A stretch of DNA of 48,065 nucleotides from the NCBI GenBank assembly GCA_027448805.1, contig DAIDMU010000080.1, positions 1-48,065 on the forward strand, written 5' to 3'. How positions within the stretch are numbered: the stretch's first letter is position 1; the number at the start of each line of letters is the position of its first letter. The stretch is from Sulfurimonas sp. GTDB lineage: Bacteria; Campylobacterota; Campylobacteria; Campylobacterales; Sulfurimonadaceae. Positions 31,681 through 35,613 of this stretch are shown one piece after another. The notes beneath the pieces were generated by a model, which was given only the letters and a program-made list of their open reading frames with translations, was not told the DNA's origin and made no database searches. Made by a program: the position numbers and the translations under genes.

Positions 31681-32513
31681 TTGTTCATAATAAACTGGCT
31701 AACGGTTTTGCCTACATTGAGGTAAATAACAGCTCTGCGGAGGCAAAAATAGCACTTCAGGGCGCACATCTGTTTCACTATAAAAGAGTCGGCGAAGAAC
31801 CGGTTCTCTGGCTCAGCGAAGTTAGTGATTTTGAAGCGGACAAGGCAATCCGCGGAGGTGTTCCCGTCTGCTGGCCGTGGTTTGGGTTTAATGAAGATAA
31901 AACTTTGCCGCAGCACGGTTTTGCAAGAACGGCTTTGTGGGAGTTTGTTTGTGGCGATGAGGTTGATGAAAAAAGTTCATCGGTAACTATAAAGCTGACG
32001 CACAGTGATGAAACGCTTAAAATGTGGCCGTACAAGTTTCTTTTGGAGCTAAAAATAACCATTTCGGATAAACTCGTTATGGAGCTGAAAACTACGAATT
32101 TGGATGATAAATCTTTTAGTATAACGCAAGCTCTTCACACCTACTTTAGTGTTTCGCATATCTCGGATGTAACCATCAAAGGGCTTGACAATAAGCCATA
32201 TCTTGATGCGCTTACTTGGAAAAAAGAGCTGCAAAAAGGTGATATAACTTTCAATCAAGAGGTCGACAGAGTTTACCAAGAGGTTGATTGCGAGATAGTT
32301 TTGAGCGATAAAAAAAGGGTTATCCATGTTAGAAATGAAAACTCATCTTCGGTCGTTGTCTGGAATCCGTGGATAGAGAAGTGCGGCAGAATGAGCGGTA
32401 TGAAAAAAGATGCTTACGAGAGTATGCTCTGCATAGAATCGGCCAACGCATTTGATGATTTTAAAGTTATAAAACCCCAAGAATCGCACACTTTAATGGC
32501 TGCTATATATTAA
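31677..32513 (+). CDS. D-hexose-6-phosphate mutarotase-like protein (YeaD type)
   Basis: Aldose-1-epimerase-fold protein acting on hexose-6-phosphate anomers. The motif GGVPVCWPWFG near residue 60 and the NPWIEKCGRMSGM segment are characteristic of YeaD-like enzymes. Length 278. With the sugar permease and HAD phosphatase it forms a small sugar-handling operon. Its last four bases overlap the end of the convergent transglycosylase. Confidence 0.9.
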   Translation: MIVHNKLANGFAYIEVNNSSAEAKIALQGAHLFHYKRVGEEPVLWLSEVSDFEADKAIRGGVPVCWPWFGFNEDKTLPQHGFARTALWEFVCGDEVDEKSSSVTIKLTHSDETLKMWPYKFLLELKITISDKLVMELKTTNLDDKSFSITQALHTYFSVSHISDVTIKGLDNKPYLDALTWKKELQKGDITFNQEVDRVYQEVDCEIVLSDKKRVIHVRNENSSSVVVWNPWIEKCGRMSGMKKDAYESMLCIESANAFDDFKVIKPQESHTLMAAIY

Positions 32514-33663: not shown

Positions 33664-33807
33664 ATGGTAGACAAAGCATGTGATAACAAAGTATGTATTA
33701 ACAGCAAAGAGTGCGCTAGATTTCAGTCATTTTTAGACGGAAATAAAGATTATAAAACATTTAAGGGCACTGAAACAAAAGGGTGCGGACAGTTTATACA
33801 AAAATAA
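33664..33807 (+). CDS. 47-aa cysteine-rich peptide upstream of the signalling gene
   Basis: Too short for the ORF track. It has its own promoter and ribosome binding site. Four cysteines at positions 6, 11, 17 and 41 (KACDNKVC, KECARFQ, KGCGQF) suggest a metal- or disulfide-stabilised fold; there is no signal peptide. The stop lies 20 bases before the preferred start of the PAS-HD gene, so the two are probably co-transcribed. No family is recognised. Confidence 0.65.
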   Translation: MVDKACDNKVCINSKECARFQSFLDGNKDYKTFKGTETKGCGQFIQK

Positions 33808-33827: not shown

Positions 33828-34925
33828 GTGGGCGAACAAAAAAACGATCTGTTTGAACAGTTTATGGAAGAGATTCCTGCGGTTATCGGTATCCATGATG
33901 ATGAAGAACGAATTGTTTACATAAATAGCAGTGCCAACTCATTTTTTACAAATCAAAGTGTAGTGGGCTCTTTTCTTTCCGATCTGCTCCCCAAAGAAAC
34001 AGCCGATAAAGCCACTCAGCTGCTAAAAGAAGCAAAGCGCAATGGCCATGCAAGAATGATTATTGAAGCAGAAGATTTAAAAAACAACACCATCCATATT
34101 TTTAAGGCTCTTGCTTTTACCATCAAGGATAAAGAGCAAAATGTTCAAATCGGAACTATATACATTGATATTACTAGGCAGCAAGAAAATATTCATGAAA
34201 TTTTAAAATTGCAACATATATTAGACAGCAGTCCGGTTTCGATAGTTATAACAGATATTGACGGAAATATAGAGTATGTAAATCCATTCTTTAGTGAAAT
34301 AACGGGCTACTCTCTTGAAGAGGCCATCGGTAAAAACCCAAAAATTCTAAAGAGTGATTTTCATCCTGATGAAGATTATAAAGAGCTGTGGGAGGATATT
34401 TCAAGCGGTGAAGTTTGGAACGGTACTTTTAGAAATATAAAAAAAGGCGGCGAGGAGTACTGGGAATCGGCGATTATCGCGCCTGTCAAAAACAGCTATG
34501 GAAAAATCACCAATTACATCGGCATCAAGCAAGAGATTACGGAGCATGTATATCTCAAAGCGCAGCTCCAGCAAAAAGAGGAGGAGAGAGCCCAGAACTT
34601 TGAAAAAACTCTTGAATCTTTTGTCGCCATTGTTGAGGACCGTGACGCATATACGGGCGGACATTCACAAAGAGTAGCAACTTATTCAAAAATGATAGCG
34701 CAGGAGATGGGCTGCTCATCGGATGAGTGCGAGCTTATTTACAGAGCCGGAATACTCCACGACATCGGAAAAATCTCTACTCCTGATAATATTTTATTAA
34801 AGCCTGATAAGCTTAGTGAGCTTGAGTACAAGCTAATAAAAAGACACGTAGAGGTCAGCTACACAATATTAAACACTATTCCCATGTATAAAGAGATAGC
34901 AGATATCGTGCTGTGCCCATCATGA
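33828..34925 (+). CDS. PAS-PAS-HD-GYP signalling protein, N-terminal part of a frameshifted gene
   Basis: Predicted cyclic-di-GMP phosphodiesterase input part. Two PAS domains (about residues 10-115 and 125-250; the second starts ILDSSPVSIVITDIDGNIEYVN) are followed by a coiled stretch and the HD part of HD-GYP with GHSQRVATYSKM and LHDIGKISTPDN. Then an extra C at 34917 shifts the frame and a stop follows (LCPS). I take GTG at 33828 as start rather than the track's 33783, which overlaps the upstream peptide gene. The remainder continues in the next entry. Confidence 0.82.
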   Translation: MGEQKNDLFEQFMEEIPAVIGIHDDEERIVYINSSANSFFTNQSVVGSFLSDLLPKETADKATQLLKEAKRNGHARMIIEAEDLKNNTIHIFKALAFTIKDKEQNVQIGTIYIDITRQQENIHEILKLQHILDSSPVSIVITDIDGNIEYVNPFFSEITGYSLEEAIGKNPKILKSDFHPDEDYKELWEDISSGEVWNGTFRNIKKGGEEYWESAIIAPVKNSYGKITNYIGIKQEITEHVYLKAQLQQKEEERAQNFEKTLESFVAIVEDRDAYTGGHSQRVATYSKMIAQEMGCSSDECELIYRAGILHDIGKISTPDNILLKPDKLSELEYKLIKRHVEVSYTILNTIPMYKEIADIVLCPS

Positions 34926-35613
34926 GCGATATGATGCAAAAGGGTACCCAAGAAGCTTGGGCGGTGATGAGATACCGCTTCTCTCACAAATCATGATTGT
35001 TGCAGATGCTTTTGATGCGATGACTACAAACCGCATCTACAAAGTGGGCAAAAATATAAATGAGGCGCTGCAAGAGCTTAGAGAGCAATCTTCAAAGCAG
35101 TTCCATCCCGAGGTTGTGGAGAGTGCCATAAAGGCGTTAGGGCATGTTGAGCTTGCAGGCAACATAAATCAGCTTCCGGTAACAGAGCTTGAAAAAGAGC
35201 GTTTCGCATATTTTTACAGAGATCAGGTAACGGATGCATACAACTCAAAATATTTAAACAATATACTGAATCAAAATAGTATAAAAAAAGAGTTTATCTG
35301 CGTAAATACGATATATATGCACAATTTCAGCATATATAATGAGAAGCATGGATGGGCGAAGGGCGATCTTTTTTTGAAAAAATTTGCCAAAGAACTTATT
35401 GAGAAATTTCCGTTATCTTTTATCTTTAGAATTCACGGCGACGATTTTGTCATCATCGGAAAAAGCCATACAGACATAGCGCTGGATGATTTGATGCAGC
35501 AAGAGATATTTAAAGAGAGCAATATAACACTTAGCTATAAACATGTAGATTTGCGCCAATATAATATAAACAATCTGCATGAACTTGAGACGGCAATACT
35601 AAAACACAACTAG
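34918..35613 (+). pseudogene. C-terminal part of the frameshifted HD-GYP gene, with degenerate GGDEF domain
   Basis: In the +1 frame from 34918 the sequence continues the HD-GYP motif as HHERYDAKGYP, then SLGGDEIPLLSQIMIVADAFDAM, completing the domain. Residues after about 80 resemble a GGDEF domain (DQVTDAYNSKYL, KHGWAKGDLF, then RIHGDDF in place of R-GGDEF), which is probably inactive. The track's ATG at 34957 is only an internal codon. Removing one C from the CCC at 34916-34918 would restore a continuous protein of about 594 residues. It may be a real mutation, a phase-variable state or a sequencing error. Confidence 0.78.

Follow-up and report, generated by a model that had tools for sequence, protein, structure and literature searches.

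A one-base frameshift at the HHExxD motif splits a predicted HD-GYP phosphodiesterase gene in a Sulfurimonas assembly

In the window analysed here (the whole stretch of DNA, 48,065 nt), a gene encoding a predicted HD-GYP c-di-GMP phosphodiesterase is split into two reading frames by a single additional C (Table 1). We think it probable that this is a real and very recent one-base insertion, present either in a Sulfurimonas population or in the dominant strain of the assembly. A sequence-only reading had proposed that the extra C, giving CCC in place of CC, breaks a PAS-PAS-HD-GYP-degenerate GGDEF frame at the HHExxD motif and that both halves keep intact domains. Comparison with relatives and with Pfam bears out both points: pairwise alignment shows a single-base difference at position 34918 against all three syntenic orthologues, and domains are intact on both sides of the break, with PAS and the N-terminal part of HD_5 upstream and the C-terminal part of HD_5 and GGDEF downstream. 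HD_5 (PF13487) is not complete in one frame, with profile positions 3-103 and 104-170 falling in separate frames, and is complete only if the frames are read through. The HD and HHExxDGxGYP motifs are both present in the DNA, as HDIGK before the break and as HHERYDAKGYP, with A for one G, after it. The start of the gene is most likely GTG 33829, which lines up with the ATG of the orthologues. The 3' fragment closes at TAG 35611-35613, and its only start codon is a weak internal TTG at 34957. ATG 34922, in the ATGA overlap, was rejected as a restart site for the 3' half because reading from it follows the third frame, which soon ends.

Table 1. Features of the split gene, its surroundings and the other broken c-di-GMP genes of the assembly.
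Feature	Location	Strand	Basis or remark
Window	48,065 nt		Sulfurimonas contig C80, from a fragmented assembly
Split HD-GYP gene, PAS-PAS-HD-GYP-degenerate GGDEF	33829-35613	+	reading frames and Pfam domains
5' fragment: PAS-PAS and first part of HD-GYP, including HDIGK	33829..34925	+	premature TGA 34923-34925
One-base length difference (CCC) in the codons for HHExxD	34916..34918	+	alignment to relatives
3' fragment: rest of HD-GYP from HHERYDAKGYP on, followed by degenerate GGDEF (RIHGDDF)	34919..35613	+	other frame
Conserved 47-codon ORF with four cysteines, just upstream of the HD-GYP gene	33664..33807	+	intact in three relatives
Second HD-GYP gene (PAS-PAS-HD-GYP)	C121:31701-32175 (L065:11701-12175)		frame change just after GYP, near 32016
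GGDEF-EAL gene	C113:12290-12480 (L145)		lacks one base that intact relatives have, within or next to an A run
PAS-GGDEF gene	C83:14680-14720 (L146)		lacks one base that intact relatives have, within or next to an A run
PAS-PAS-GGDEF-EAL gene	C54:2436-2439 (L147)		in-frame stop inside PAS domain

The syntenic orthologues, from JAURYA010000056.1, MIBZ01000060.1 and MICF01000001.1, all belong to Sulfurimonas (their records also gave the window its genus name), share their neighbourhood with the window and are about 92, 87 and 77% identical, respectively, over the aligned protein. Two are full-length, each a single open frame of ~595-600 codons, which rules out a chance overlap of two ORFs in the window; the third (MICF01000001.1) lacks the N-terminal part. 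At the HHExxD motif the frame is open in all three, as well as in all the listed homologues, which number more than 25. Because the relatives are open and one base shorter at this site, the length change at 34916-34918 would have arisen on the branch of the window or in its assembly. With a frame-breaking lesion that is absent from its orthologues, the gene would classify as a recent pseudogene. The earlier reading had taken relatives with CC as the sign of a sequence error. Relatives with CC were indeed found, but they are other species, and such relatives would look the same whether the extra base is a genuine mutation of this species or strain or an error.

Substitution patterns place the break close to the present. 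In a three-way comparison, the lineage-specific changes of the window number 34 synonymous and 12 nonsynonymous before the break and 22 and 6 after it. The intact sister, at 40 and 17 before and 13 and 11 after, fares no better. By these counts, purifying selection has acted on both halves along the window's lineage up to the very recent past, and may be acting still. Since the changes are mostly synonymous in both halves, the break should be either very young or an error.

The frameshift is isolated among its neighbours. Comparison of sister proteins with the window revealed one frameshift in ~44 genes, that of the HD-GYP gene, and the remaining flagged cases were over-extended starts. For a wider sample, stretches totalling 349 kb of the assembly were set against stretches from two sisters (271 and 714 kb). 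Among the 127 genes (126 kb) tested in this sample, which are those with orthologues in the sister species and are thus biased towards conserved genes, no genuine frameshift was found besides the HD-GYP gene. Two candidates, L053 and L064, were dismissed: the first is an ORF that fuses two genes and the second is antisense. The 126 kb sampled gave no sign of an assembly generally riddled with frameshifts.

Further lesions were found among other c-di-GMP genes of the assembly. Two of its four HD-GYP genes are broken, both within the motif region, and all relatives examined are open at the break position of the second. Small lesions of varied kinds break ~5 of 41 c-di-GMP genes, compared with 0 of 126 other genes (Fisher p ~0.0007), although this excess was spotted after the fact, the test is post hoc, and the figure of ~5 of 41 is our own count. 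Broken HD-GYP genes are likewise more frequent here than in 20 relatives (2/4 against ~2/155, p ~0.003), while a GGDEF-only comparison with two sisters gave 3/35 against 2/83, which is not significant (p 0.15). In domain screens, 30 matches to ABC ATPases and 25 to histidine kinases contained nothing similarly split except for one truncated PstB. This PstB-like ATPase (C36:25570-25795, L148) ends after ~75 codons near a contig end and may be a misassembly. This pattern favours real recent loss over random error and lends moderate support, not proof, to the view that dispensable signalling genes have truly been lost. A literature search on c-di-GMP gene decay found no matching account, and of the listed papers that mention Sulfurimonas together with c-di-GMP none had a title pointing to the subject.

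The extra base could instead be a consensus error or reflect a collapsed strain mixture, with the population's gene intact and the insertion absent from most cells. We regard this as possible but do not favour it. The assembly is fragmented (1.86 Mb in 122 contigs, 87.9% complete) and is probably metagenome-derived, the relatives are intact at 34916-34918, the two halves are otherwise undamaged and under purifying selection, as expected of an intact gene, and three of the other c-di-GMP lesions are also small length changes, all of which would suit an error. However, the other coding sequence that was tested (126 kb) contains no such error, and the lesions concentrate in c-di-GMP genes, where one of them is a nonsense codon. 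Moreover, the longest homopolymers of the HD-GYP gene, four 7-base A or T runs and several of six, are unbroken, while the affected run changes from two to three C, making homopolymer sequencing error a poor fit.

The sequence-only reading had also allowed that the change is reversible. Recency and error survive as explanations, but reversibility finds no support in a CC/CCC run at which no orthologue varies, in a gene whose four 7-base A or T runs are unbroken. We consider it very improbable that slippage phase variation or programmed +1 frameshifting at the break yields some full-length protein, even though the break falls right on the catalytic motif with the domains kept intact, and even though a c-di-GMP phosphodiesterase of C. 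difficile is known to phase-vary by a different mechanism, DNA inversion (PMC9286219). The run is of three C only, no Shine-Dalgarno-like stimulator lies just upstream and no recoding signal is visible, the TGC or CCA codons would re-pair poorly one base on, and a shift at TCA-TGA would not yield the HH pair. Typical contingency tracts are also much longer than a CC/CCC run. The locus has no long simple repeat or invertible segment, and no length variant was seen among the relatives. As the orthologues need no shift, both programmed +1 frameshifting and slippage were rejected on the site sequence and the intact orthologues.

A real and recent insertion would end translation a few bases on, leaving an upstream product with the PAS sensors. 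This product is missing both paired histidines along with the GYP loop and an aspartate ligand further on, and the HD is missing from the downstream piece. In PmGH, the two histidines of the HH pair, His276 and His277, are each essential for activity (PMC4159591). With these elements absent upstream, and with neither the HD nor a good start downstream, phosphodiesterase activity should be lost and the enzyme inactive. No cyclase would be lost with it, since every listed homologue carries a degenerate GGDEF domain (GDDF or ANDF); the RIHGDDF found here does not match the active diguanylate cyclase signature GG[D/E]EF. We infer that the break is of true biological origin, with the gene being one of several c-di-GMP genes lost to small lesions in a genome where ~40 such genes presumably overlap in function, so that single members could be dispensable. 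It is unlikely, in our view, that c-di-GMP enzymes, above all HD-GYP phosphodiesterases, are being lost in parallel in this lineage, whether as an adaptive change or because its c-di-GMP network is collapsing. Taken alone, the locus is an ordinary emerging pseudogene, one redundant signalling enzyme broken in a fragmented genome. If the lesions are real, it could join the other damaged c-di-GMP genes in showing how large c-di-GMP networks lose members.

The read-through HD-GYP domain matches PmGH from Persephonella marina (PDB 4MCW), an active HD-GYP c-di-GMP phosphodiesterase, over residues 273-450 with an E-value of 1.6e-31, and the window protein shares its HD, HH and GYP motifs. The PmGH ligand E185 is replaced by a tyrosine (YTGGH), as in the other HD-GYP subgroup (PMC4159591). 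Unlike PmGH, the window gene is split by a frameshift, has DAKGYP instead of DGxGYP, and encodes a degenerate GGDEF after the HD-GYP domain. The best solved-structure match to the domain is 3'3'-cGAMP-specific phosphodiesterase 3 (PDB 5Z7C, E 1.5e-39), which differs in architecture. The Sulfurimonas HD-GYP-GGDEF orthologues have the same protein and neighbourhood as the window but a single open frame at the break site, and the family is predicted to consist of c-di-GMP phosphodiesterases. The motif DAKGYP (34919-34951) occurs in the window species and two sisters, while the third orthologue and nearly all homologues have DGxGYP. The small four-cysteine ORF just upstream of the HD-GYP gene is possibly co-transcribed with it.
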